In this document: in pieces, positions 4,794 to 60,332 of the stretch
Numbering within the stretch: position 1 is the stretch's first letter
Layout: the number at the start of each line of letters is the position of its first letter
Source: Rhodoblastus acidophilus
GTDB taxonomy: Bacteria > Pseudomonadota > Alphaproteobacteria > Rhizobiales > Beijerinckiaceae
Direction: 5' to 3'
DNA: 64,000 nt
Assembly: GCF_025961575.1 (NCBI RefSeq)
Contig: NZ_JAOQNX010000001.1
Span: 124,001-188,000, forward strand
The notes under the pieces: model-generated
Database searches by the model: none
What the model was told of the DNA's origin: nothing
What the model saw: only the letters and a program-made list of their open reading frames with translations
Made by a program: the position numbers and the translations under genes

Positions 4794-5618
4794 TCACCTC
4801 TGCGTCTTCGGCGCGGTCGCGGGGCAAAGCGCCTGATAAAACCCGAGCATGACATCGTAGCCGGAGGCCGTGGAGCCATCGAGGATTTGCCCGCTGGCGA
4901 GATCGCGGATGGAATAATCCGCGAAGACTTCGCCGGAGCCCGGCTTCGTCCTGCCCAGAAAAACATATTTTCCGCCATTCAGATCAGAAAACGTCTTGTT
5001 CGGACAATCGCCGGTAATCGTGTTCCCGTGCGGGTCCTTCTCCTGCTCCGCAATGCATTTTTGTGAATAATCATGCGCATATTCACGACAAAACTGCACT
5101 GCGCCATCGTGGCTGGGCCTGGTCTTCACCAGTGCATGCGACGTATCCAGCCCCTCCCGCGCGGCGATCTCGTCATACATGCCGACCCGCGCCCCATAGA
5201 ACAGCGTCGATTTCGGATCCGGGTCCGCCGGCGAGGGGCCGACATAGACCTTTTCGCCTGGCCCCCAAGCGCAAATCACGGAATCCTTGGCGTCGGGATC
5301 GGCGGCGGTCACCAGCCAGCAGCCGCCGCTGCGGTCGGCGTCGCCCAGTTTAACGCTGGCGACCTCTCCGCCCTGAGGTCCCGTCCAGAACGCCTTGCCC
5401 TCGTCTTTCTTGCCGACATTGACCTGCGCCATGACGCGGCCTTGCGCGTCGGTGATCCGGAACGACCCAGATTTTTCCAGCGGCGCAAAACTGCAGGCGC
5501 CGCCGATATAGTGAACGCCCTGCACCTCAAGCAGGCAAAGCGCTGGACGCGACTGCGCCCAAGCCTGCGGCGCCAGGACCGCCGCCACAACGGCGGCGCA
5601 CAAGCCACGAAAAATCAT
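4794..5618 (-). CDS. Secreted protein of unknown function
   Basis: A 274-residue product with a clear Sec signal peptide (hydrophobic stretch at about residues 5-18, predicted cut after AWA near residue 21), so it should be periplasmic or outside the cell. The mature part contains eight cysteines, which suggests disulfides, and no membrane segment. I do not recognise a family. The ATG at 5618 has a strong ribosome site (AGGAGG). It stands alone, convergent with zapA and downstream of pyrD by about 45 bases on the same strand. Confidence 0.8.
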   Translation of the reverse strand: MIFRGLCAAVVAAVLAPQAWAQSRPALCLLEVQGVHYIGGACSFAPLEKSGSFRITDAQGRVMAQVNVGKKDEGKAFWTGPQGGEVASVKLGDADRSGGCWLVTAADPDAKDSVICAWGPGEKVYVGPSPADPDPKSTLFYGARVGMYDEIAAREGLDTSHALVKTRPSHDGAVQFCREYAHDYSQKCIAEQEKDPHGNTITGDCPNKTFSDLNGGKYVFLGRTKPGSGEVFADYSIRDLASGQILDGSTASGYDVMLGFYQALCPATAPKTQR

Positions 5619-5662
5619 TTCGTCCTCCTGAAATAAAAACGGCGCCGCGCGGCGCCGAAATT

Positions 5663-6736
5663 TTACAGCCAGTCGTTCACCGCCGTTCCCACGGCTTGCC
5701 CGATGGATTCAAGTTTTCGCGCCCGCAAATGTGCGGCGAGCCCGGTCTTGATCCGGCCGACCAGACCCAAACCCTCATAAACCAGCGACGAGTAAAGCTG
5801 GACCAGGGTCGCCCCGGCCTCGATCTTGGCCCAGGCGGCCTCCGGCGAATCCACGCCGCCGACGCCGATCAGCGGAAACTGGTTTTCGACGCGGACAAAC
5901 GTCTGGGCGAGCATGCGGGTCGACAGCGCGAACAGCGGCGCGCCGGAGAGCCCGCCGGTTTCGCTGCGCAAGGCGTCGCGCAGGGTCTCGGGCCGCGCCA
6001 AAGTGGTGTTGGAGACGATCATGCCGTCGACGCCTCTCGCACGCGCGACTTTGACCACATCGTCGAGATCGGCGAGGGCGAGGTCCGGCGCGATTTTCAA
6101 CAGCACCGGGCGGCGCGGCAGCTGCATCGCGGCCTGTTCCCGCGCCGCGATCACCCGCGCCAGGAGGTCGTCGAGCGCGCCGGCCTGCTGGAGATCGCGC
6201 AAGCCCGGCGTGTTGGGCGATGAAATGTTGACCGTAAAATAGCTGGCGACATCGGCGAAACATTTGATGCCGGCGACGTAATCGGCGGTGCGGTCGCTCG
6301 AATCCTTGTTCGCGCCGATATTGACGCCGACGACGCCGCCATTGGCCGCCCGCCGCAACAAACGCTCGCGCGCCCGCTCATGGCCGCCATTGTTGAAGCC
6401 GAAGCGGTTGATGACGCCGCGATCCTCGTGCAGCCGGAACAGGCGCGGCTTCGGGTTGCCGGGCTGCGGGCGCGGCGTCAGCGTGCCGACCTCGGTGAAG
6501 CCGAAGCCGAGTTTCAGCAACGCATCCGGAACCCGGGCCTCCTTATCAAAGCCCGCCGCCATGCCGATTGGGTTGGGGATATCGAGCCCGAACACATTCT
6601 GCGCCAGGATCGGATCGTCGTCGGCCGCAGTCGGCAGCGGCGCGCCCCAGAGCGCGAGAAGGGTGAGATTATGCGCGCGCTCGGCGTCCATGCTGTGCAG
6701 GAGCGGCAGGGCGAAGGAATCGAAAAAACCCGTCAT
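5663..6736 (-). CDS. pyrD: Dihydroorotate dehydrogenase (quinone), class 2
   Basis: Oxidises dihydroorotate to orotate in pyrimidine synthesis, passing electrons to membrane quinone. The 357-residue length and the N-terminal amphipathic segment with HNLTLLAL point to the membrane-associated class 2 type. Family marks are NPIGMAAGFDK near residue 55, GFGFTEVGTLTP (FMN/substrate), RFGFNN, and NISSPNTPGLR with the catalytic serine. The start overlaps the upstream DUF952 gene by four bases (ATGA), so the two are coupled. Confidence 0.96.
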   Translation of the reverse strand: MTGFFDSFALPLLHSMDAERAHNLTLLALWGAPLPTAADDDPILAQNVFGLDIPNPIGMAAGFDKEARVPDALLKLGFGFTEVGTLTPRPQPGNPKPRLFRLHEDRGVINRFGFNNGGHERARERLLRRAANGGVVGVNIGANKDSSDRTADYVAGIKCFADVASYFTVNISSPNTPGLRDLQQAGALDDLLARVIAAREQAAMQLPRRPVLLKIAPDLALADLDDVVKVARARGVDGMIVSNTTLARPETLRDALRSETGGLSGAPLFALSTRMLAQTFVRVENQFPLIGVGGVDSPEAAWAKIEAGATLVQLYSSLVYEGLGLVGRIKTGLAAHLRARKLESIGQAVGTAVNDWL

Positions 6737-7074
6737 GCCAAAAGTCCGGTGAAATCATGGGCGCCGTCGCGCCAGGGCAAGGGATGCGCCGACAGCGCCA
6801 GGGCCGTCGGCAGGGGCGCATAGAGATGGGGGAACAGCGCGCCCCCGCGCGAAGGCTCGAACAGCAGTTTTTCGCCCAAGGCCGCTTCATCGAAGGCGAC
6901 CAGCACGAGGCCGTCCTGGCCGGCGAAATGTTTTGCCGCCGTCTCCTCGACCTGCCCCGCCGTGGAGAAATGGATGAACCCGTCAGTGCGGTCGACGGGC
7001 GACCCTTCGTAAACCCCGCATTCCTGCGCGGCGGCCCAGTCCGTCCCGGGCATGATTTTGTAGATAAGCGCCAA
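6733..7074 (-). CDS. DUF952 family protein
   Basis: A 113-residue protein with the DUF952 pattern: IYKI at the start, then GVYEGSPVD and DGFIHFSTAGQ. The family is small, widespread and of unknown biochemical role, with a fold related to ADP-ribosyl-binding proteins as far as I recall. The likely start is TTG at 7074, because the family begins with this segment and no in-frame ATG precedes it; the alternative ATG at 7053 would remove the IYKI strand. It overlaps pyrD by four bases. Confidence 0.85.
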   Translation of the reverse strand: MALIYKIMPGTDWAAAQECGVYEGSPVDRTDGFIHFSTAGQVEETAAKHFAGQDGLVLVAFDEAALGEKLLFEPSRGGALFPHLYAPLPTALALSAHPLPWRDGAHDFTGLLA

Positions 7075-7203
7075 ATTTGCATTCCACGGCTGCGATCAAG
7101 GCATTTTTTCGACCATCTTGCGACGCTCCGCAAGATGCGGGTTTTCACCGGCGCGCCGCCGTTCTAATAGACGTGCTTCTCTCCAGCCTGCTTCCGGAAA
7201 AAA

Positions 7204-8877
7204 ATGACCGATTTCGCCGAACTCGCCCAATTCGCAAAAACTTCGAACGCCTGGCCGTTCGAGGAGGCGAAGAAACTGGTGGCCAGGGTCGAGCGCACCG
7301 GTCAGAAACAGGTTTTGTTCGAAACCGGCTACGGCCCCTCGGGCCTGCCGCACATCGGCACGTTCGGCGAGGTCGCGCGCACGACCATGGTCCGCCACGC
7401 CTTCGAGACCCTCACCGGCGGCCAGATCAAGACGCGCCTGCTGGCCTTTTCCGACGATCTCGACGGGTTGCGCAAAGTCCCGGACAATATTCCCAACAAG
7501 GACCTGGTCGCCGCCCATCTGGGAAAGCCGCTCACCCAGGTTCCCGACCCGTTCGGCGAATATCCGAGCTTTGGCGCCCACAATAACGCGCGGCTGCGGG
7601 CCTTCCTCGACCATTTCGGCTTCGACTACGAATTCGCCTCCTCGACCGAATATTACCAGTCCGGCCGCTTCGACGAGATGCTCCTCAAAATCCTGGCGCG
7701 GTTTGACACGGTCCAGGCGGTGATGATCCCGTCATTGCGCGAAGAGCGCGCCTCCACCTATTGCCCGTTCCTGCCGATCCACCCGCGCACCGGCGTCGTC
7801 ATGCAGGTCCCGCTCGAGGAAATCGACCTGCCCGGCGGCATGATCGGCTGGCGCGACCCGGACACCGGCGAGCGCTTCATGACCAAGGTCACCGGCGGCC
7901 ATTGCAAGCTGCAATGGAAGCCCGACTGGGCGATGCGCTGGTGCGCGCTCGGCGTCGACTATGAAATGGCCGGCAAGGATTTGATCGATTCGGTCAAACT
8001 TTCGGGCAATATCGCCCGGGCGCTCGGCCACACCCCTCCGGAAGGGTTCAATTACGAGCTGTTCCTCGACGAGAACGGCCAGAAAATTTCCAAGTCCAAG
8101 GGCAATGGCATCACCATCGAGCAATGGCTGACCTACGCCACGCCGGAAAGCCTCGCCTTCTTCATGTATTGGAAGCCGCGCGAGGCGAAAAAATTGCATT
8201 TCGACGTGATCCCGCGCGCCGTCGACGAATATCTGGCGTTTTTGGACGCCTATCCGCGCCAGGACGCCAAGAACCGGCTCGGCAATGCGGTCTGGCACAT
8301 CCATTCGGGCAAGCCGCCGGCGCCGGAATTCATTTCGCATGAGGAGGGGCAGAAGGGGACGGCCATTTCCTTCGCCATGCTGCTCAACCTCGCCGCCGTC
8401 GCCAATAGCGAGGACCCCTCGGTGCTCTGGGGTTTTCTGAGACGCTACGCGCCGACCGCCACGCCGGAAAAATTTCCGCGCCTCGACCAGATGATCCGCT
8501 ATGCGGTGCTGTATTTCCGCGATTTCGTGAAGCCGAAAAAGGTTTATCGCGCCGCCGACGAGGTGGAGCGCGACGCGCTGACAAAGCTTTCGGACGCCCT
8601 GGCGACGCTGCCGGCCGAGGCCAGCGCGGAGGACATCCAGACCCTGCTCTACGATGTCGCCCGCCCGATCCCCCGCTACCAGAATTTTGCGGCCAAGGGC
8701 GCCACGCCGGAGCGTCCGGGCGTGTCGAACGACTGGTTCAACATGCTCTATCAGGTTTTGTTGGGCGAGGATCGCGGTCCGCGCTTCGGCTCCTTCGCCG
8801 CGCTCTACGGCCTCGACAACACCCGCGCCCTGATCGCGGACGCGCTGGCCGGCAAGTTTTTGAAGGTCGAGGCCTGA
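7204..8877 (+). CDS. lysS: Lysyl-tRNA synthetase, class I
   Basis: Charges tRNA-Lys with lysine. This is the archaeal-type class I enzyme (557 residues), unrelated to the class II LysRS of E. coli; alphaproteobacteria commonly carry this form. The Rossmann-fold signatures are plain: a HIGH-like HIGT at residues 50-53 and a KMSKS-like KISKS at 294-298. The ribosome site before the ATG at 7204 is weak (a purine run). It is transcribed alone and divergently from DUF952-pyrD; its stop abuts the stop of a small convergent gene with no base between. Confidence 0.97.
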
Positions 8878-48090: not shown

Positions 48091-48843
48091 ATGACCTCCC
48101 GTCCCGAAAAGGCCTTTGTGTTCGCCGCCGGTCTCGGCACGCGCATGCGCCCGCTGACCCTGACCCTGCCCAAACCGCTGATTCAGGTCGGCGGCAAGAC
48201 CATGCTTGATCACATGCTCGACCGTCTGGCCGAAGCCGGGGTGAACGAGACCATCGTCAACGTGCATTGGCTCGCGGACCAGATCGAGGCCGCGCTGAAA
48301 AAGCGCCGGTCGCCCGCGATAAAGATCTCGGACGAGCGGGCGCTGTTGCTCGACCAGGCCGGCGGAATCATAAAGGTTTTGCCTGATTTCGCGGGCAAGC
48401 CGTTCTTCATCTGCAATACGGACGCGCTGTGGATCGATTCGCCTGCCCCCGAGGTCACGCGGCTGCGCGACCACTGGGATGGCGACAAGATGGACGTGCT
48501 GCTGCTCCTCGCCAAAAGCTCCGAAAGCCTTGGCGTCGAAGGCCGCGGCGATTTCTTCATGGACGCGTCCGGCGCGCTGTCCCGTCCCGCGCCGGGCGAG
48601 GAGGCGCCCTACACCTATGCCGGCGTGGGCGTGATCAAATCCGCGCTGTTCGCGAACCGGGCGGTCGAGCCGTTGCGCTTGGCCCCGTTCTTCTTCGACG
48701 CCGCCGCCCGCGGAAAACTTCACGGTCTGGTCCTGCAGGGGCGCTGGCTGCATGTCGGAACGCCCGATATGATCGAACGCGCTGATGCGGCCTTCGCATC
48801 GCGATCGGAGGCCAAGACGTGCCCCCCCGCGTTTTCAACATAG
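48091..48843 (+). CDS. murU: N-acetylmuramate-1-phosphate uridylyltransferase MurU
   Basis: A 250-residue sugar-nucleotide transferase with the signature FAAGLGTRMRPLT (11-23) and PKPLIQVGGKTMLDH. Next to an AmgK it is best read as MurU, making UDP-MurNAc from MurNAc 1-phosphate, a recycling path that lowers fosfomycin sensitivity in Pseudomonas. It starts one base after the tsaE-amgK stop, and its 3' end overlaps addB by 25 bases. Confidence 0.9.
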   Translation: MTSRPEKAFVFAAGLGTRMRPLTLTLPKPLIQVGGKTMLDHMLDRLAEAGVNETIVNVHWLADQIEAALKKRRSPAIKISDERALLLDQAGGIIKVLPDFAGKPFFICNTDALWIDSPAPEVTRLRDHWDGDKMDVLLLLAKSSESLGVEGRGDFFMDASGALSRPAPGEEAPYTYAGVGVIKSALFANRAVEPLRLAPFFFDAAARGKLHGLVLQGRWLHVGTPDMIERADAAFASRSEAKTCPPAFST

Positions 48844-51800
48844 CTCCGGGCTGCCCGTTCCTCGAAACATTTGTGGCAGCCTTTTATGAAGGCCGCGTGA
48901 TCCCCGGGCTGAGCCGATCGTCCCCCAGCGATTTGGCGCGATGCCGAATTTTTGTGCCCACACAGCGCGCTGCGCAGGCTCTGGCCCTGGAGCTGAAGCG
49001 GCAGAACCGCGGCGGCCGCCTGCTGCCCGCGATCCTGCCGCTCGGCGCCCTGGAGGACGACGGCTCCGCGCTCCCCGACGATTTTTTCGACGCGCCGGCG
49101 CCCCGCGCGGCGGGCGAACTCGAACGCCGCATGATTCTCGGCGAACTGATCTTGGCGTGGTCGGCGCACCTCAAGCAAGCCATCGTCTCCATCGACCGCG
49201 ACGGCTCCATCCGCCACGCCCCCGAGCCGCTGCTGGTGGGAACGCACCCGGTCGACGCCTGGCGCCTGTCCGGCGAACTTGCGCGCCTGATCGACGAAAT
49301 GATCATCGAGGACGTCGCCTGGAAAAACCTCGACGCCCTCAACCTCGATTTCGACGAATACTGGCGCCTCACCCTGCACTTCCTCGACATCGCCGTCGAA
49401 GCCTGGCCGGCGATCCAGCGCGAGCGCGGCCTCGTCGATCCCGCGACCCGCCAAAAAGAGTCGATCAAGCGCGCGGTCGAAACAGTTTCGAATGCGGACC
49501 ATCCGGTGATCGCTCTGGGCTCGACGGGCTCCAACATCAGCACGGCGCAATTGCTCGCGGCGATTGCCCGCGCCAAGCGCGGCGCCGTCGTGCTCCCCGG
49601 ACTCGACACCCATCTGGACGCCCGCTCCTTCGCCGCCTTGCGCGACGCCGTAGTGTCGAAGCCGACCCACCCCCAAGCCTTTTTGGCGCGGCTGATCGCC
49701 GGCATCGGCATTGATCGGGACGACGTCGTCCCGCTCGGAACCGCTGCCGCAAAACTGGCGAAGCGCGAGGAATTCATCTCCGAAAGCTTTCGGCCCGCCG
49801 AGAGCACGGACCTTTGGCGGCATTGGCGCGCCCTGCAACACCCGGCTGACCTCCGCGCCGCGCTGGACGGCGTTTGCGTCATCGAAGCCGCCAACGAACG
49901 CGAGGAAGCGCTCGCCATCGCCGTTTGCCTGCGCGAGGCGCTTGAGGACGAGACGCGAATCACCGCCTTGGTGACGCCGGATCGCGCGCTGGCGAGACGC
50001 GTGCGCGCGGAAATGCTGCGCTGGGACGTCGAGATCGACGACACCGGCGGCGTCTCCCTCGGCCTGACGCAGGCCGGGACTTTGGCGAGCCTCCTCCTCA
50101 AACTGTTGGACGCAACGTCCTGGGCCGCCTTGCTCAGCCACCCGCTGGCGACATTCGGCCTGGAATCGCAAGCGCCGGACCTTGCGCGTCTGTTCGAGAT
50201 CGGCGTGCTGCGGTCAGGCGCGCGCGTCACGGGGCGCTGGCGCCCGGAAGTGGACCGCGCCCGCGAGGCGGCGCAAAGGCGCGACGCGCATCCCCGACAA
50301 AAGGCGATTTCGGAGGAGCAATGGCTCCAACTGGAAGATTTTGCCGACCGCCTCGACGCCGCCCTGGCGCCGCTTCAATCCCTGACCGGCCGCTTCCCGC
50401 TGAGCCGCTGGCTCGAGGCGCATCGCCAGGCGATTGTCCTCACGACCGGCTCGGACATTCTTGCCCCCGGCGAGGATGGCGAGGCCCTCGCCGCCCTTTT
50501 CGACGACCTGTCCGGCGCGGCGAGCGCGCGTTACGTCTTCGATCTCGAGGCCTACACGACCTTCTTCGACGCCCTGGTCGGAGAGCGCGTGTTGCGCGGC
50601 GCCGAGAGCGGCCATCCGCGTCTCAAAATTCTGGGACTTTTGGAGGCGCGGCTGTTCGGCGCGACGCGCGTCGTTCTGGCGGGGCTCGACGAAACCGTCT
50701 GGCCGCCGGAGGCGCCGAGCAGCTCCCTGTTGAGCCGCCCGATGCGCGAAAAGCTCGGCCTCTCCTCCATCGACCGCAGGATCGGACAGACGGCCCACGA
50801 TTTCTGCCAAGCGCTCGGGACGCAAGAGGTGATCATCACCCGCGCCCGGAAACGCGGCGGCGTCCCCACCATTCCCTCGCGCTTCCTGCAACGCATGGAG
50901 GCGCTGGCCGGCGCCGAGATTTTTGACGACCTGCGCGTGCGCGGCGCGCGTTGGCTCGATTTCGCCCGCCGCCTCGACCAATCCGCGCCCGTCGCCCCGT
51001 TGAAACGGCCGGACCCGAAGCCGCCGATGGAGCTGAGACCCAAAACCCTCTCGGTCACCAAGATCGAGACGCTGCGCCGCGACCCCTTTTCCATCTACGC
51101 CCAGCACATCCTGCAGTTGGAGCCGCTGCCGCCGCTGGATGAGGAAACCGGCGCGCGCGAGATCGGCGTCGCCGTCCACGCCGTTCTGGAAGAATTTTGC
51201 CGCGCCCACCCGCACGGCCCCCTGCCGGAAGACGCGCGCGAAAAACTCCTGGACCTCCTGAAACGCCAGCTCGGCGCCCTCGCCAATGATCCGGAGTTCC
51301 AGACGTTTCGCTGGCCGCGCCTGCAAAACGGAATTGACCTCTATCTCGCCTACGAGGCCGAGCGCCGTCCGGCGCTGAAAAAACTGTTCATCGAGGAAGG
51401 CGGCGCGCTCTCGATCCCATTGCGCGACGGCTCGGAATTCCTGCTGACCTGCCGGGCGGACCGCATCGAATTTTCGGTCGACGGAAACATGGCCGTTTGC
51501 GATTTCAAGACCGGCGCAGTCCCGAGTTTTGCGCAGATCAGCGCCGGCTTTTCGCCGCAACTGACCCTGGAAGCCGCGATGATCGCGCGCGGCGGTTTTA
51601 GGCGCATCAAACCCGGCCCGGTGACCTCAGGTTTTTACATTCCGCTCGGCGGCGCGCCAAAAAGCGCGGTCAGCGAAATCAAACCGGGCCCGCGCGCCCG
51701 CGAGAAACTGACCTTTGAGGAGCTCGCGGAAGAGCATTTCAGCGAACTGCAAAAACTGCTCAACGATTTTCGCGATCCCAGGCGCGGCTATCCCGCCCGC

Positions 51801-51899
51801 CCCTTCCCGCAATTCGCCTCGCGCTACAACGATTACGATCATCTGGCGCGCACGCGGGAATGGTCCATCGTCGGCGCCAATGAAGCGGACGACGCATGA
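48819..51899 (+). CDS. addB: Double-strand break repair protein AddB
   Basis: The AddB subunit (1026 residues) of the AddAB helicase-nuclease that resects double-strand breaks for RecA. It has the helicase-like but inactive body and a C-terminal PD-(D/E)XK nuclease domain (about 750-985): SVTKIETLRRDPF, the metal-ligand region in RADRIEF, and DFKTG with Asp895. The GTG start at 48819 has GGAGG upstream inside murU. It overlaps addA by four bases (ATGA). Since AddA here lacks its nuclease, this may be the only nuclease centre of the complex. Confidence 0.94.
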   Translation: MPPRVFNIAPGCPFLETFVAAFYEGRVIPGLSRSSPSDLARCRIFVPTQRAAQALALELKRQNRGGRLLPAILPLGALEDDGSALPDDFFDAPAPRAAGELERRMILGELILAWSAHLKQAIVSIDRDGSIRHAPEPLLVGTHPVDAWRLSGELARLIDEMIIEDVAWKNLDALNLDFDEYWRLTLHFLDIAVEAWPAIQRERGLVDPATRQKESIKRAVETVSNADHPVIALGSTGSNISTAQLLAAIARAKRGAVVLPGLDTHLDARSFAALRDAVVSKPTHPQAFLARLIAGIGIDRDDVVPLGTAAAKLAKREEFISESFRPAESTDLWRHWRALQHPADLRAALDGVCVIEAANEREEALAIAVCLREALEDETRITALVTPDRALARRVRAEMLRWDVEIDDTGGVSLGLTQAGTLASLLLKLLDATSWAALLSHPLATFGLESQAPDLARLFEIGVLRSGARVTGRWRPEVDRAREAAQRRDAHPRQKAISEEQWLQLEDFADRLDAALAPLQSLTGRFPLSRWLEAHRQAIVLTTGSDILAPGEDGEALAALFDDLSGAASARYVFDLEAYTTFFDALVGERVLRGAESGHPRLKILGLLEARLFGATRVVLAGLDETVWPPEAPSSSLLSRPMREKLGLSSIDRRIGQTAHDFCQALGTQEVIITRARKRGGVPTIPSRFLQRMEALAGAEIFDDLRVRGARWLDFARRLDQSAPVAPLKRPDPKPPMELRPKTLSVTKIETLRRDPFSIYAQHILQLEPLPPLDEETGAREIGVAVHAVLEEFCRAHPHGPLPEDAREKLLDLLKRQLGALANDPEFQTFRWPRLQNGIDLYLAYEAERRPALKKLFIEEGGALSIPLRDGSEFLLTCRADRIEFSVDGNMAVCDFKTGAVPSFAQISAGFSPQLTLEAAMIARGGFRRIKPGPVTSGFYIPLGGAPKSAVSEIKPGPRAREKLTFEELAEEHFSELQKLLNDFRDPRRGYPARPFPQFASRYNDYDHLARTREWSIVGANEADDA

Positions 51900-54727
51900 A
51901 GCCGCCGATTCCGGAAAAGACGCGGTACGATCAAACGCGCGCCTCGGACCCGCAAAAATCGGCCTGGGTCGCCGCCAATGCCGGCTCGGGCAAAACCCAT
52001 GTCCTGGCCCAGCGCGTCATCCGCCTGCTGCTCCAGGGCGCCCGCCCCGACCGCATCCTGTGCCTGACTTTTACCAAGGCGGCGGCGACCAATATGTCGG
52101 AGCGCGTGTTCCGCACGCTGGCGAATTGGGCGACCTTTTCGGATGCCGAACTCGGCGACGCCATCGCGGCGACCGGAGAAAAGCGCCCCGAGCCGGCGGG
52201 TCTTGCGGCCGCACGCAAGCTTTTCGCCCGCGCGCTTGAGACGCCCGGCGGCCTCAAAACCCTGACAATCCATGCGTTTTGTGAGCGGCTGCTGCACATC
52301 GCCCCGTTCGAGGCCAACGTTCCCGCGAATTTTTCGGTGCTGGAAGACCAGCAAAAGAGCGAACTGCTCGACCGCGCCCGCGCCGATGTCTTGGCTGCGG
52401 CCGCCGAAGATGCTGCGCTTCGCTCTGCGCTCGAAATCGTCGCCCGCGACGGCGGCGTCGATTTTGAGAAGACCATCGGCAGCGCCCTGGAAAAGCGCGC
52501 CGCCTTCCGCGAACTGAATCAAGAAGACGCCCAACAACGCCTCCGCACGGCGCTGGGCGCCGGCGCGCATGACACGGTCGAAACGGTCCTGCGCGCCATA
52601 GGCGCAGGAGACCTGCCCCCGGAGGACTGGCCGAAAGTGGCCGATTTTTTGGCCACCGGCTCAGCCACGGATCAAAAAAACGCCTCCGCCTTTCGCGCGG
52701 CGCACCAGCATTGGCGCGCAGAAAAGCTTGAGGCGGCCAGCCAGTCGCTGGCGTCGATCTATTTGAAAAGCGATGGCGGACCAGCAAAACTGCTGACCAA
52801 GGCGCTCGCGACCGCTCGGCCCGACATGCTGGCGGCGCTGGAGGCCGAGCAAAGCCGCCTGATGCTGCTGTGGGACAGATTGGCCGCCGCGCGCGTGTGC
52901 GAGCGAACCCTCGCCCTGGCTGTGGTCGTCAACGCCGTCGCGGATCGCTACGAGCGCGACAAGTCGATGCGCCAATGCATCGACTTCGACGACATGATCG
53001 AACGCACCTCGACGCTGTTGACCCGATCCTCGGCGGCCTGGCTCCTCAAAAAACTCGACGGCGGCATCGACCACATTCTGCTCGACGAGGCCCAGGACAC
53101 ATCGGCGTCGCAATGGGAGATCGTCGAGCGCATTTCGGCGGATTTTTTCGCCGGCGAAGGCCAAGCCAAGCACGTCCGCACCCTGTTCGTCGTCGGCGAC
53201 GAAAAGCAATCCATCTTTTCTTTCCAGGGCGCGCAGCCCGAGCTGTTTTCGACGAAGCGGCGCATGTTCGCGCAAAAAATTCGCGAGGCGGACCAGCAAT
53301 TCGAATCCGTCGAACTGCACCTGTCCTTCCGCTCGGCGCCCGGCGTTCTGGCCGCGGTCGATGAGATTTTTTCTTCGCCCGAGCGCAGCCGGGGCCTTTA
53401 CGGCGGGCAGGAGCACGTCAAAACCGTGCACGAGGCCTGGAAACGCGAGCAGCCGTCGATCGTCGAACTCTGGGACGTGATCGCGGCCTTAGAGAGCGAA
53501 CCCAGCCGCGACTGGCGCCTGCCGCTGGACTATCGCGACGAGACCGATCCGGCAGTCGCCTCCGCCCGGCGCATCGCCGGCGTCATCGCCGGCTGGCTGC
53601 GCGACGGCGAACCGATCGGAACGGGTCAAAACCGTCGCGCCATAAGGCCCGACGACATCATGATCCTGGTGCGCCGCCGCGACGCATTTTTCGAGGCGAT
53701 GATCCGCGCCTTGAAGGAAAAGGGCGTGCCGACCGCCGGTTCCGATCGGCTGGCGCTCGCCGAGCATATCGCCGTCATGGACCTGCTGGCGATCGCGCGC
53801 TTCGCCTTGTTGCCCGAGGATGACCTTACGCTCGCGACGGTTTTGAAAAGCCCGGTGTTCGGCCTCGGCGACGAGGACCTGATCGCTCTGGCGCCGAACC
53901 GCGAAGGCGCGCTCATCCGGGCGCTGCAAACGTCCGAGCGCCCCGAACATCAGGCCGCCTGCGCAAAACTCGACCTGCTCGGCCGCATGGCGCGCGAGCT
54001 CCCCCCCTTCGATTTCTTCGCCAGACTTTTGGGGCCGATGAGAGCGCGCGAAAAAATCCTGGCCCGTCTCGGTCCGGAAGCCGGCGACGTCCTCGACGAA
54101 TTCTTGAACCTCGCCCTCCAGCATGAGGGCAAGACGACGCCGAACCTGCGCACTTTCGTCGCCGAGGTGGAATCGTCGGAGGGAACGATCAAGCGCGATC
54201 TCGACACCGGCGCCGGCCAGGTCCGCGTCATGACCATCCACGCGGCCAAGGGGCTTGAAAGCCGGATCGTCTTCCTGCCCGACGTCTGCGCGACGCCGAC
54301 CACCCGCCTGGATTTCCCGATCTTCCTGTTCGAGACGCCAGCCGGCCCGCTGCCGGCATGGTCGCCGCGAAAGGAGCTGGACTGCGCGCGGGTCGGGGCC
54401 CTGCGGGCGGACAAGAAGGAAGCGGGATTGCAGGAATACCGGCGACTGCTCTATGTCGCCATGACACGGGCCGAGGAACGCGTCTATATCGGCGGCCATC
54501 GCGGCAAGAACGCGCTTCAGCCGGAAAGCTGGCGCCTCATGCTGGAGCAGGCCCTGAGCGCAAACGCCCAGACCGCTCCCGCGCCGTGGAGCCAGGACGA
54601 AACCGTTCTGCGCTACGCGGACCAGCCGTCCGATGGGCCATGCGAAAAGCCCGAGGCCGCTGGTCCCGCGGAAAAAACGGAAATGCCGGATTGGCTCACC
54701 CGCCCGGCGCCCGCGCCACAAGCTTGA
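51896..54727 (+). CDS. addA: Double-strand break repair helicase AddA, lacking C-terminal nuclease
   Basis: The UvrD-type helicase subunit of AddAB. Seen in order: Walker A ANAGSGKT (27-34), CLTFTKAAATNM, the DEAQDT box, GDEKQSIFSFQGA, VMTIHAAKGLES and YVAMTRAEERVY. It ends at residue 943, just after PDWLTRPAPAP, the linker that in relatives leads into a RecB-like nuclease domain. AddA proteins of this order are, as I recall, about 1,100-1,200 residues, so roughly 200 are missing. No trace of the nuclease is seen in any frame downstream. The helicase part looks intact, so the gene is probably functional but shortened. Confidence 0.9.
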   Translation: MKPPIPEKTRYDQTRASDPQKSAWVAANAGSGKTHVLAQRVIRLLLQGARPDRILCLTFTKAAATNMSERVFRTLANWATFSDAELGDAIAATGEKRPEPAGLAAARKLFARALETPGGLKTLTIHAFCERLLHIAPFEANVPANFSVLEDQQKSELLDRARADVLAAAAEDAALRSALEIVARDGGVDFEKTIGSALEKRAAFRELNQEDAQQRLRTALGAGAHDTVETVLRAIGAGDLPPEDWPKVADFLATGSATDQKNASAFRAAHQHWRAEKLEAASQSLASIYLKSDGGPAKLLTKALATARPDMLAALEAEQSRLMLLWDRLAAARVCERTLALAVVVNAVADRYERDKSMRQCIDFDDMIERTSTLLTRSSAAWLLKKLDGGIDHILLDEAQDTSASQWEIVERISADFFAGEGQAKHVRTLFVVGDEKQSIFSFQGAQPELFSTKRRMFAQKIREADQQFESVELHLSFRSAPGVLAAVDEIFSSPERSRGLYGGQEHVKTVHEAWKREQPSIVELWDVIAALESEPSRDWRLPLDYRDETDPAVASARRIAGVIAGWLRDGEPIGTGQNRRAIRPDDIMILVRRRDAFFEAMIRALKEKGVPTAGSDRLALAEHIAVMDLLAIARFALLPEDDLTLATVLKSPVFGLGDEDLIALAPNREGALIRALQTSERPEHQAACAKLDLLGRMARELPPFDFFARLLGPMRAREKILARLGPEAGDVLDEFLNLALQHEGKTTPNLRTFVAEVESSEGTIKRDLDTGAGQVRVMTIHAAKGLESRIVFLPDVCATPTTRLDFPIFLFETPAGPLPAWSPRKELDCARVGALRADKKEAGLQEYRRLLYVAMTRAEERVYIGGHRGKNALQPESWRLMLEQALSANAQTAPAPWSQDETVLRYADQPSDGPCEKPEAAGPAEKTEMPDWLTRPAPAPQA

Positions 54728-54802
54728 GCGCTATGCCTTTGTTAACCATAAATGCCTAACGCTAGAGCTGGCGTGATCGCGCGCCGCTCTAGCGAGGTTC
54801 AG

Positions 54803-56419
54803 GTGTCGAGTTTTCCGCGTCGAGGCGTTCGCCGGGCCGCGCTGTCGCTGACGGCGCTGCTTGCGTTCGCGCCGATCTGGACCGCCGGCGCGCAGCAGAT
54901 CGATCGCCTGTCGAAGCCCGGGCCGCCCGCGCCGGCGCCGATGGACGATTCGCTCAGGCTCGGCGACGACGGATCGGCGTCCCTGGACGCAGCGGGCGCG
55001 CCGCCCGAAGGCGGCGCCGGCGAGCTTCCCGGAACCGACGCGATGGATTTGCGCAGCGGCGCCGACGACGAGGACAGGCCGGCGCCCCGGAGACCCGGCC
55101 AAAGACCGCCAAAGAGAATGCCGGCTCTGCCGCCGCTCGTCCCCTATGCGACCTCCGCCGAGGCGCGGCGGGCGGCGAGGCTGAACCACGTCCCGGTTCC
55201 CGGCGACGCCGATTACATCGCCCCCTCGCCGACCACGGCGGCGCCGCCGCCGATTCCGAGCAAGCCCCGCCCCAGGGTCGAGGAGCGGCCCTATGCGCCG
55301 ATCGGGATCGATGTCGGCCTGCTGCGGGTCAGGCCGTATTACGAAAGCGATATCGGCTTCAACAACAACCCGGGCGGCTCGCAAAGCGGGAACGTCACCC
55401 CTTCGGCCTTCACCCGCCAGGAGATCGGCGCCGCAGCGGAATCCGATTGGGGCGCCCACAGCTTCACCGGCAAGATGCGCCTCGGCTATTACGACTATTT
55501 CAACGCGCATCCCTCCGATGCGCCGGACGGCGTGGGCGATTTCCTGCTGCGCCTCGACGCCGCCCGCGACCTGAAGATCAATGTGGACGGCGCCTACAGC
55601 CTGGGCACGCAAGGCGCGAGCTCGCCGAACATCATCAATGCCGGCCAGCTCTCGAACCGCCCGATCGTCGCCATTTTCAGCGGAGGTTTGGGCTTCACCA
55701 AAACCTTCAACCGGCTCGACCTCACCCTGCGCGGCTCCGCCGAGCGGGACTACTGGCAGGACGCCCATTTCACCGACGGCTACACGCAGAACCTGTCCGC
55801 CTATTCCTACAACGCCTATGGCGTGAGCGGGCGCGCCTCCTACGAGCTGAACCCGGGCGTCAAACCCTTCATCGAGGCGAATGTCGACACGCGCCTCCAC
55901 GACGGCGCCTATTGGCGGGATTCCAACGGCGTCCAGGTTCGGGCCGGCACGTCGTTCGAGATCACCCGCTTGCTCACCGGCGTGATCAGCGTCGGCTATG
56001 GCCAGCGCAATTATTACCGCGATCCCCTGCTCATCCCGCTGCGCGGCCCGCTGCTCGATTCGTCCCTGCTCTGGACGGTGACGCCCCTGACCCGGGTGAG
56101 CCTGCGCGGGACGACCACGATGGACGAGACCACCATGCCCCTCTCGCCCGGCGCCCTCACCCACGCCGTCAATCTTGAAGTGGCGCATGCGCTGATGCGC
56201 AATGTGACGCTGACCGCCTTGGGCAGCGTCACGAACTCGCGCTACGAGGGCGTCAATCTGATCCAGACCACCTATCAGGGCGGTCTCCAGGTGGAATACA
56301 GCCTGACGCGCTCCGTCGTGGTCAAGGGCTCGTTCACGCATCAGCGGCTGGACTCGAACCAGCCCGGAAGCGATTATACGGCCAACATCATCATGGTCGG
56401 CCTGCGGCTACAGCGCTGA
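54803..56419 (+). CDS. Outer-membrane beta-barrel protein (BBP2-like)
   Basis: A 538-residue precursor with a signal peptide (RRGVRRAALSLTALLAFAPIW, read as basic start then hydrophobic; cut after TAGA near residue 30), a Pro/Arg-rich linker to about residue 160, and a C-terminal barrel of alternating strands ending in the aromatic/charged terminal strand IIMVGLRLQR. It resembles the putative beta-barrel porin 2 family often tied to exopolysaccharide export or unknown roles. The GTG at 54803 has GAGG five bases upstream; an ATG at 54752 would add 17 residues but has no ribosome site. Confidence 0.8.
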   Translation: MSSFPRRGVRRAALSLTALLAFAPIWTAGAQQIDRLSKPGPPAPAPMDDSLRLGDDGSASLDAAGAPPEGGAGELPGTDAMDLRSGADDEDRPAPRRPGQRPPKRMPALPPLVPYATSAEARRAARLNHVPVPGDADYIAPSPTTAAPPPIPSKPRPRVEERPYAPIGIDVGLLRVRPYYESDIGFNNNPGGSQSGNVTPSAFTRQEIGAAAESDWGAHSFTGKMRLGYYDYFNAHPSDAPDGVGDFLLRLDAARDLKINVDGAYSLGTQGASSPNIINAGQLSNRPIVAIFSGGLGFTKTFNRLDLTLRGSAERDYWQDAHFTDGYTQNLSAYSYNAYGVSGRASYELNPGVKPFIEANVDTRLHDGAYWRDSNGVQVRAGTSFEITRLLTGVISVGYGQRNYYRDPLLIPLRGPLLDSSLLWTVTPLTRVSLRGTTTMDETTMPLSPGALTHAVNLEVAHALMRNVTLTALGSVTNSRYEGVNLIQTTYQGGLQVEYSLTRSVVVKGSFTHQRLDSNQPGSDYTANIIMVGLRLQR

Positions 56420-56430
56420 AGTCGGAAAGG

Positions 56431-56446
56431 TTTAGACAAGGTTAAC
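56431..56446 (+). promoter_or_regulatory. CtrA-like box upstream of the chemoreceptor gene
   Basis: TTTA-GACAAGG-TTAAC, one mismatch from the CtrA consensus TTAA-N7-TTAAC, 46 bases before the chemoreceptor ATG. CtrA commonly drives motility and chemotaxis genes in alphaproteobacteria. This is inference from sequence. Confidence 0.45.
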
Positions 56447-56491
56447 GCGATTAGACTGCGCGACGCCACGCCCGCGCAAAGTGCTCCCGCC

Positions 56492-57877
56492 ATGCTGAAC
56501 CTCCTGAAGCCGAAGCGAACCGAACAGGTCGCCATCGCCCCCCCGAGCGAACCCGACAGCGCGCAAGCGCAACAGGATCTGCTCAGGCCCATCGCCGAAG
56601 CCATCTACCGGCTGCGCGCCGGCCTCCGGCCCGAAGGCGCGTTTCCCGATCCCGTGGGCGCGGCGCTGCTCGCCCTGTTCGAGGCGCTCCAGGCGCGCGA
56701 CGAAGCCGGCTTGAGGCAGACCGTCGGGCTCTCGACCCAGGCCAGCGAAGCCATGGCGTCCTTCTCGCGCACCACCGTGGAAGTGCGCGAGATCGACAAG
56801 CTGGTGCAGGACATGTCAGCGGCGCTGGGACGCCTCGACGGCTCCATGAAAAACCTGGACGCGGTCGGCGGCCAGACCCGGACCGTGATGCTGGAGAGCG
56901 CCCAGCTCGTCCGCGAGGGCGCGCAAGCCGTGGGCGCCTCAACCGCCTCGGTGGAGCAGATCGGCGAAGCGCTGAAGAAACTCGCCGCGCGCGCCGCCGC
57001 GCTCACCGAGGCGACCGCGCAAATCACGGGCATTGTCGGCAATATCGAGGCCATCGCCTCGCAGACCAACATGCTGGCGCTCAACGCCACCATCGAGGCG
57101 GCGCGCGCCGGCGAAAGCGGCCGGGGATTTGCGGTGGTGGCGCAGGAGGTCAAGGCGCTCGCCGGCCAGACCGCCAAGGCCACGGACGATATCCGCCGGC
57201 GCATCGAGCGCCTGCGCGGCGACACCGAGGGCCTCGGCGCTTGCGTCGTCGACGCGGAGGCGGCGATGGAGCATTGCCGGGAGGTCAATGCCGAAGCCCA
57301 TTCGAAAATGTCGGCGGCCGAGGCGGCGCGCGAATCCAACGCGGGCCGGATGAGCGAGCTTTTTCAAATTCTCGGCGAACAGACGGCGACGACCTCGCAG
57401 CTGGCGACGACCGCCGCGAAAATCTCAAAGCAGCTCGACAAGACCGTCGTACATTCCAACGCCGCCGTCGCCGCCTGCAAGGCGTCGGACAAGCTGATCG
57501 AAGCCCAGCTCGCCGAGTTCGACACGCGCAGCCCGCGCGACTACGTGCTGCACCGCGCCAAGTCGGACCACATGCTGTGGAAGAAGCATTTGAACGAAAT
57601 GCTCGCGGGTGTGTCAAAGCTCGAGGCGTCGGAACTGGTCGATCATCATTCCTGCCGGCTCGGCAAGTGGCGCGACGGGCCGGTCGAGCCCTCGATCAAG
57701 CGGCATCCGGCCTTTGCCGCGCTGGAGCGGCCGCATGAGGCCGTTCACGTCCACGGCCGGCGCGCGGCCGAGTTTTTTGCGCGGGGCGACCGCGCCGGCG
57801 CCTTTGCCGAAGTCGAGAAAATGGAGGCGGCCTCGACCGAGGTCGTCCGCCTCCTGGATCAGCTGATCAACCGATGA
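56492..57877 (+). CDS. Soluble chemoreceptor with C-terminal CZB zinc-binding domain
   Basis: A 461-residue methyl-accepting chemotaxis protein without membrane segments. The signalling hairpin is around residues 184-222 ([20 protein letters not shown], then [13 protein letters not shown]). The C-terminal chemoreceptor zinc-binding domain (about 355-460) has likely ligands His360, Cys388 (in CRLGKW), His415 and His419. CZB proteins sense zinc or hypochlorous acid in studied bacteria, and this one would act in the cytosol. It abuts convergent galU with no gap and has a CtrA-like box upstream. Confidence 0.93.
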
Positions 57878-58762
57878 TCAGAGCGCCCCGACGATTCGTT
57901 TCAGCTCAGCCCTGAATTCCGGCTCGATATCCGGCCGCGCCAGGGCGAAGGCGACATTGGCCGCCAGGAACCCGACCTTGGAGCCGGTGTCATAGGTCTT
58001 GCCGTCAAAATGGTGGCCGAAGAATTTCTGCGCCTTGGCCAGTTCGATCATGGAATCGGTGAGCTGGATTTCGCCGCCGGCGCCCTTCTGGCCCTTGCCG
58101 AGCAGGTCGAAAATCTGCGGCTCCAGGATATAGCGGCCGGAAATGATGAAATTCGACGGCGCGGTTCCCTGCGGCGGCTTTTCCACCATTCCAGTGATTT
58201 CAAAGGCCTGGCCGAATTCCTGGCCCCGCGCCACCACACCATATTGATGGGTCTGGTCGTTCGGCACGGTTTCGACGGCGATCACATTGCCGCCATGGGC
58301 GTTGTAGGTGTCGACGCATTGCTGCAGGCAGCGTTTGCCGCTGGCGCCCGGCAAGGTGATCATGTCGGGCAGCAGGACGGCGAAAGGCTCGTCGCCGACG
58401 ATATCGCGCGCGCACCAGACGGCGTGGCCGAGGCCAAGCGGCGACTGCTGGCGCGTAAAACTGGTGGCGCCCGCCGCCGGCAGGTCGGCCTTCAGCCCGT
58501 CCAGCTCCTTCAGCTTGTTGCGGCGCTGGAGCGTGTCCTCGAGTTCGTAGGCGATATCGAAATGGTCCTCGATCACCGCCTTATTGCGGCCGGTGACGAA
58601 GATGAAATGCTCGATGCCGGCCTCGCGCGCCTCTTCGACGCAATGCTGGAGCACGGGGCGATCCACGACGGTCAGCATTTCCTTGGGCACGGTCTTGGTC
58701 GCGGGCAGAACGCGGGTGCCGAGACCAGCGACGGGAAATACGGCTTTACGAATTTTCTTCAT
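57878..58762 (-). CDS. galU: UTP-glucose-1-phosphate uridylyltransferase
   Basis: Makes UDP-glucose from UTP and glucose 1-phosphate for polysaccharides and lipopolysaccharide. The 294-residue protein has the nucleotide loop FPVAGLGTRVLPATKTVPKE (9-28), VDRPVLQHCVEEA, GLGHAVWCA and VEKPP. It is divergent from galE with a 181-base gap; together they provide UDP-glucose and UDP-galactose. Confidence 0.96.
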   Translation of the reverse strand: MKKIRKAVFPVAGLGTRVLPATKTVPKEMLTVVDRPVLQHCVEEAREAGIEHFIFVTGRNKAVIEDHFDIAYELEDTLQRRNKLKELDGLKADLPAAGATSFTRQQSPLGLGHAVWCARDIVGDEPFAVLLPDMITLPGASGKRCLQQCVDTYNAHGGNVIAVETVPNDQTHQYGVVARGQEFGQAFEITGMVEKPPQGTAPSNFIISGRYILEPQIFDLLGKGQKGAGGEIQLTDSMIELAKAQKFFGHHFDGKTYDTGSKVGFLAANVAFALARPDIEPEFRAELKRIVGAL

Positions 58763-58943
58763 GGATCGTCCATCTCAGCTGATGAAGCTTCGGTAAGCTC
58801 ATAGCACCGCAACGGTGGCCGCGTTAAGGAGATTGCGGCGCCCGCCCGCCTGCCGCTTTAGTCTATCCCCTTCCGTTCACGGGCGGATTCGACTAAATCG
58901 GGACGATTCCCGCGACGTCTCGTCGCATTGCACAGGATTTCAC

Positions 58944-59933
58944 ATGACCGTCCTCGTTACCGGCGGCGCCGGCTATATCGGTTCGCACATGGTTTTGGAG
59001 CTGGTCGAGGCCGGCGAAAAGGTCGTCGTGCTCGACAATCTCTCGACCGGCCGCCGCGACGCCGTGCATCCTGACGCGGAACTGGTGGTCGGAGAATTCG
59101 GCGACGCCGCTTTGGTGAAAGACTTGCTCGCCAGCCGGGGCGTCGATGCCATCATCCATTTCGCGGCGAAAATCGTCGTGCCCGAATCCGTGTCCGACCC
59201 GCTCGGCTATTATCTCAACAACACAGCCTCGGCCCGCAGCCTGCTGGCCTGCGCGGTGGAAAGCGGCGTGAAACATTTCATCTTCTCCTCAACCGCCGCC
59301 GTCTATGGCGATCCCGAGCAGAACCCGGTCACCGAGGACGAAACGCTCAAGCCGGTTTCGCCCTATGGCCGCTCAAAACTGATGGTCGAATGGATGCTGG
59401 CCGACACCGCCGCCGCCCATGACCTCAAATATGTGGTGCTGCGCTATTTCAACGTCGCCGGCGCCGATCCCAAGGGGCGCACCGGCCAGTCCTTCCCCAA
59501 CGCCACCCATCTGATCAAGGTGGCGGTGCAGGCCGCTCTGGGCATGCGCAAAGGCATGGAGATGTTCGGCACGGATTATCCGACCCCCGACGGCACCTGT
59601 CTGCGCGACTACATCCAGGTCACCGACCTCGCCCGCGCCCATATGGACGCGCTCAAACATTTGCGCGCGGGCGGCGACAACCTGACCTGCAATTGCGGCT
59701 ACAAGCGCGGCTATTCCGTGAAGGAGGTGATCGAGACGGTGAAAAAAGTCTCGGGCGTCGATTTCCCGGTGAAAATTTCGGGACGCCGGCCCGGCGATCC
59801 CGCGGCGATCGTCGCCGACAACGCCCGCGCCAAATCGGTGCTGGGCTGGACGCCCGAACATGACGATCTCGAAGAGATCGTGCGCCAGGCCCTGGCGTGG
59901 GAGAAGAAGCTCTTGGCGGAACAGGCGGACTGA
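58944..59933 (+). CDS. galE: UDP-glucose 4-epimerase
   Basis: Interconverts UDP-glucose and UDP-galactose with bound NAD. The 329-residue extended SDR has GGAGYIG at 7-13, the SSTAAVYG serine-threonine segment and the catalytic YGRSK (Y-x3-K). The ATG at 58944 has AGGAT upstream; the open frame back to 58815 is not expected to be translated. It converges on a small secreted-protein gene 6 bases beyond its stop. Confidence 0.95.
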   Translation: MTVLVTGGAGYIGSHMVLELVEAGEKVVVLDNLSTGRRDAVHPDAELVVGEFGDAALVKDLLASRGVDAIIHFAAKIVVPESVSDPLGYYLNNTASARSLLACAVESGVKHFIFSSTAAVYGDPEQNPVTEDETLKPVSPYGRSKLMVEWMLADTAAAHDLKYVVLRYFNVAGADPKGRTGQSFPNATHLIKVAVQAALGMRKGMEMFGTDYPTPDGTCLRDYIQVTDLARAHMDALKHLRAGGDNLTCNCGYKRGYSVKEVIETVKKVSGVDFPVKISGRRPGDPAAIVADNARAKSVLGWTPEHDDLEEIVRQALAWEKKLLAEQAD

Positions 59934-59939
59934 TCCGCC

Positions 59940-60332
59940 TCAATCCTCGACGGGACGGTAGAGGGAGGAATACAGCCGCGCCACGCCGAGCCGGCAAAAG
60001 GCGTTGGCGCTGAGATACATCGTGCCATCCCATCCCTTGTATTTGGCGTCGCATTTCGCTTGCAGGCCGTTATAGACCTGCTTGTCCGCGGCGCTCAGCT
60101 TTTGCCAAAAGTCCAGTCCGCACTTGCGTTCGGCGACAGGCGCGATGTCCAGGTCGCCGGAGGCCCCGAAGGCGCAGGACTCGGCGATTTCAGCGCCTTG
60201 CTCGCAGCCCGGCGCTGCCTTGATCGCCCGATTGACGCGGTCGATATAATCAGGCCCATGGTCCTTCACGGGACAGTCCAACGCCCAGGCGGGCCCGGCG
60301 CAAAGCAGCGCCAGCAAAGCGGTTTTGCGCAT
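59940..60332 (-). CDS. Small secreted cysteine-rich protein
   Basis: A 130-residue precursor with a short signal peptide (cut after AWA near residue 17). The mature part has six cysteines, which suggests three disulfides in the periplasm, and ends with YLSANAFCRLG and a short tail. No family was recognised, though the compact cysteine pattern recalls lysozyme-inhibitor-like periplasmic proteins. It lies just after cutA on the same strand. Confidence 0.75.
   Translation of the reverse strand: MRKTALLALLCAGPAWALDCPVKDHGPDYIDRVNRAIKAAPGCEQGAEIAESCAFGASGDLDIAPVAERKCGLDFWQKLSAADKQVYNGLQAKCDAKYKGWDGTMYLSANAFCRLGVARLYSSLYRPVED

Follow-up and report, generated by a model that had tools for sequence, protein, structure and literature searches.

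The AddA protein encoded in the window analyzed (64,000 nucleotides of a 4.91 Mb genome of the purple bacterium Rhodoblastus) was found to be a helicase that ends at the domain border, where its relatives continue into a C-terminal nuclease, and its partner AddB retains a nuclease of its own. AddA proteins shortened in the same way were found in three further Rhodoblastus species, and the resulting enzyme probably trims one DNA strand only.

AddA and AddB Domain Structure

The features of the addAB operon are collected in Table 1; the start of addA overlaps the stop of addB by 4 bases. In the profile search suggested by the original prediction, AddA matched TIGR02784 (addA_alphas) with 1020.8 bits, above the curated cut-off of 860.75 bits, which identifies it as an alphaproteobacterial AddA helicase. 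The match stopped at position 947 of 1138, lacking the last ~190 positions, so that AddA does not provide the second nuclease of a two-nuclease AddAB. Pfam likewise detected UvrD-type helicase domains only. Inspection of the SF1 helicase motifs showed I to VI to be intact, as predicted, in all four truncated species. The protein ends in PDWLTRPAPAPQA, followed by TGA. The end had been correctly placed at residue 943, but not in its exact context, since two more residues (QA) come after the sequence PDWLTRPAPAP that was thought to be terminal. In the AlphaFold model, the helicase is well formed up to approximately residue 910, and the residual linker is mostly predicted to be disordered (pLDDT <50 at residues 911–931 and 939–943). 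Among solved structures, the model was closest to B. subtilis AddA, at a modest TM-score (0.53).

Table 1. Features of the addAB region (positions in the window).
Feature	Position	Strand	Details
addB	48819..51899	+	1026 aa, full length; TIGR02786 893.5 bits over 1-1024/1024
AddB nuclease domain PD-(D/E)XK, with DFKTG	51045..51770	+	PF12705, residues 743-984
addA	51896..54727	+	943 aa, helicase without nuclease; TIGR02784 2-947/1138
AddA motif I (Walker A), VAANAGSGKTHVL	51968..52006	+	Motif inspection
AddA motif II, DHILLDEAQDTSASQ	53069..53113	+	Motif inspection
AddA UvrD_C helicase domain, motifs V and VI	54116..54493	+	PF13361, residues 741-866
AddA residual linker, residues 911-943	54626..54724	+	Alignment; leads into the nuclease in relatives
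Stop codon and 24-base spacer, site of the missing nuclease domain	54725..54751	+	Shared with R. acidophilus
BBP2-type beta-barrel protein gene	54752-56419		Next gene after addA

AddB scored above the TIGR02786 cut-off (893.5 versus 486.5 bits). Its nuclease, claimed from the sequence to be kept with a DFKTG motif, was recovered by Pfam as PDDEXK_1, and the motif was intact in all four truncated species. The beta-barrel gene was also found directly after addA, as described. The absence of trxA beside addA, originally taken as a clue to rearrangement, proved uninformative, as Rhodoblastus species with full-length AddA lack an adjacent trxA too; trxA adjoins addA in two genomes of other genera (G019 and G013).

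Distribution of the Truncation within Rhodoblastus

The nearest named genome was that of R. acidophilus DSM 142, whose AddA is 90% identical and which was the sole match in a contig scan for close relatives. AddA was present in all 11 Rhodoblastus genomes examined and lacked the nuclease in four of them: this genome, R. acidophilus (G001), G005 and G008. In the numbering of this protein, these end at approximately residues 943, 943, 900 and 910, respectively, the first two sharing an identical end position and downstream spacer. The other seven genomes keep the nuclease. Six of these encode a full-length AddA that has a typical nuclease and measures ~1130–1155 residues when counted from the matched start; in G010, the seventh, the beginning of the helicase and the nuclease are found on two different contigs. 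The four truncated species formed one clade, with 97–100% bootstrap support, in each of four gene trees, built on the helicase part of AddA, on AddB, on a histidine kinase and on TsaE-APH.

The comparison of addA length in sister species therefore upheld a real truncation, and one that is not confined to this genome: it is a change of long standing that has become fixed in a single Rhodoblastus subclade, with differing end points (~900, 910 and 943). The genes upstream of addB were the same in the truncated and full-length groups. The DNA directly 3′ of addA (54728–60000 and the equivalent site in relatives) varied among most Rhodoblastus species, truncated or not. As the 3′ end of addA borders this variable region, the loss of the nuclease domain would fit a deletion or rearrangement there, and that part of the original prediction, together with the end at the domain border, was retained. 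The differing ends point to a linker that was trimmed at a later stage, although more than one separate truncation could also lie behind them.

A Putative One-Nuclease AddAB

Why AddAB degrades both strands until Chi is encountered is a long-standing question. In B. subtilis AddAB, each of the two nucleases has a strand of its own; according to the current model, the binding of Chi protects the 3′ strand from cleavage by AddA, with AddB continuing to degrade the 5′ strand (PMC4824097). We consider it reasonably likely that the Rhodoblastus subclade carries a natural one-nuclease AddAB, in which the 5′ strand would be cut by AddB and the 3′ strand spared from the start. The AddA nuclease domain would have been lost at the helicase–nuclease border in the ancestor of the subclade, and the linker, no longer needed, would have been shortened further in some descendants. 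The truncated AddA would still unwind DNA from a break and AddB would still cut the 5′-ended strand, leaving untouched the 3′-ended strand, which AddA normally degrades up to Chi, and giving recombination-ready 3′ overhangs without a prior need of Chi. If the strand assignment of B. subtilis holds in Rhodoblastus, the truncated enzyme would thus act from the start like a normal enzyme after Chi. Formation of the AddA–AddB complex, strand choice and Chi independence are what we infer by analogy, the assignment of strands being borrowed from an organism whose AddB has no significant phmmer match to this AddB. Mapping of the Chi-reading residues from the solved B. subtilis AddB was dropped for the same reason.

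A further and more tentative suggestion, which may well not hold, is that this is a naturally Chi-independent AddAB in ordinary-sized genomes, having given up the destructive, Chi-regulated mode to make 3′ overhangs directly. Against a one-nuclease, Chi-free reading, the Chi-reading part of AddB showed no relaxed constraint beyond a weak trend: within the truncated clade, the N-terminal part of AddB had a weakly raised divergence in relative terms, mostly at p >0.05 and with non-independent pairs, which is not good evidence for lost Chi reading. Were the enzyme Chi-independent, it would show that bacteria in nature can do without Chi control of break resection.

The chief rival to the one-strand reading is that AddB cuts both strands with its single nuclease, like RecB in RecBCD, in which case the products would hardly change. 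It is established that RecBCD operates with one nuclease, which can serve both strands, and the AddB nuclease is intact; for AddB to do the same, however, it would have to reach a strand that it does not normally meet, and the division of strands in B. subtilis AddAB (PMC4824097) also argues against it. This alternative is regarded as unlikely. Sister species of the same genus, with the same operon and the one domain present or absent, offer a natural comparison between the two forms. R. acidophilus DSM 142 being a named strain in a culture collection, the effect of the loss on resection, recombination and defense against linear foreign DNA is directly testable.

Selection on the Shortened Gene and Its Rarity

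It was also considered that the loss of the nuclease might be an early step of pseudogenization in a complex that no longer matters. The variable end points between species would be in keeping with such decay, as would the erosion that accompanies AddA nuclease loss in reduced genomes, where a detached nuclease fragment was seen in one case (G321, below). Within the truncated clade, however, dN/dS of AddA was 0.13–0.17, indicating continued purifying selection as strong as that on AddB of the same species (0.13–0.20); full-length AddA of relatives gave 0.12–0.26. The frame has moreover been kept since before the split of the four species, and every helicase motif persists. Decay is accordingly judged improbable, and the truncated AddA is still maintained by selection. 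Faster evolution of AddA on the stem branch was rejected, as the path lengths of AddA and AddB were similar when the different branching of G009 was allowed for.

Among 248 genomes of the family, 233 gave an AddA helicase match and 231 a nuclease match. Eight had the former without the latter, comprising the four Rhodoblastus, two genomes in which addA reaches a contig end (G033 and G243) and two incomplete assemblies (G188 and G200); there was no other clear AddA nuclease loss among the 248. In the class sample, the nuclease match was absent from 24 of 193 genomes. The AddA profile search covered 19 of these 24, besides this genome, and AddA was found in nine of the 19, in one case (G310) at a contig end. 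The other eight, with genomes of 0.7–1.7 Mb, encode AddA frames of ~760–930 residues that stop after the helicase.

In one of these, the 0.9 Mb alphaproteobacterium G321, a 148-residue AddA nuclease fragment was observed in a frame of its own that overlaps the end of an 885-aa AddA (L089:4645-7738), and its relative G410 has a short AddA without the fragment. In G384 (1.5 Mb), a short AddA (808 aa) is accompanied nearby by an AddB-like protein of 584 residues, whose match to the AddB model is confined to the C-terminal nuclease part (L092:2460-4214 and 5492-7918); in the flanks of addA, such an AddB-like nuclease gene was found in G384 alone of the eight small genomes. Judged from these frames, AddA without a nuclease recurs in reduced genomes and is not unprecedented. 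What is new is that such an AddA has become fixed in a clade whose genomes are of ordinary size and whose sister species have retained the nuclease, together with the evidence that the shortened gene is maintained. A literature search on Rhodoblastus AddA found no paper.

Search for the Missing Nuclease

The original prediction had also proposed looking for the missing nuclease elsewhere in the genome. The queries used against the four truncated genomes were a single AddA nuclease taken from a relative, a profile built from 13 AddA nucleases, and PF12705; none of the three found an AddA-type nuclease elsewhere, although the same searches recovered it in full-length relatives. PF12705 matched only AddB in each truncated genome, compared with at least two matches in the full-length species, and relocation of the nuclease was therefore rejected. 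No RecB helicase–nuclease was identified in this genome, the only matches besides AddA being two UvrD/PcrA-like helicases. A frame-shifted remnant 3′ of addA was likewise rejected, as the matches obtained were weak, scattered and insignificant, with the best ones falling within AddB.

These results also bear on the idea that a distinct protein, from another family, supplies the 3′-strand nuclease. The searches covered AddA-like nucleases and PF12705 only, which leaves this idea some room; but no AddA-type or second PF12705 protein turned up in four genomes with searches that worked in full-length relatives, and it is thought very unlikely. There is a negligible chance that a longer frame is masked by a sequencing or assembly error near 54700, which was named beforehand as a possible refutation, given that R. 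acidophilus DSM 142 has the same end and spacer, that two further species end early too, ~3 kb from the nearest contig end (four separate assemblies in all), and that no nuclease sequence lies nearby in any frame.

A further neighboring pair of large PF12705 proteins was observed in three full-length Rhodoblastus (G002:C11:51360-55588, G003:C16:3452-7446 and G006:C1:76922-81150). With open frames of ~930 and 1170–1240 aa, the pair is perhaps a second AddAB-like or related helicase–nuclease system.

Comparison with Known Systems

The truncated Rhodoblastus enzyme shares the operon, a full AddB with its nuclease and an AddA helicase above the curated cut-off with alphaproteobacterial AddAB (TIGR02784/TIGR02786), from which it differs by the whole AddA nuclease. 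With B. subtilis AddAB, the closest solved structure to the AddA model, it has the helicase and the AddB nuclease in common, unlike the two nucleases, one per strand, and the Chi control of the 3′ strand found there (PMC4824097). It resembles RecBCD in having one active nuclease per complex, but in the reverse arrangement: the RecB (AddA-like) nuclease remains in RecBCD and that of RecC is inactive (PMC1185551), whereas the AddB nuclease is the one kept in the truncated Rhodoblastus.

The nearest parallel in the fate of the gene comes from endosymbionts. Repair reportedly still operates without the nuclease domain, a result that the Wolbachia work attributes to Amundsen et al. 2009. Six Wolbachia strains of isopods have lost the whole AddA nuclease to a premature stop, and their remaining addA is under purifying selection, as it is here (PMC4224334). 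In contrast to that reduced-genome endosymbiont, where a palindromic element brought in the stop, the truncated Rhodoblastus clade has genomes of 4.4–5.1 Mb and retains no nuclease remnant.
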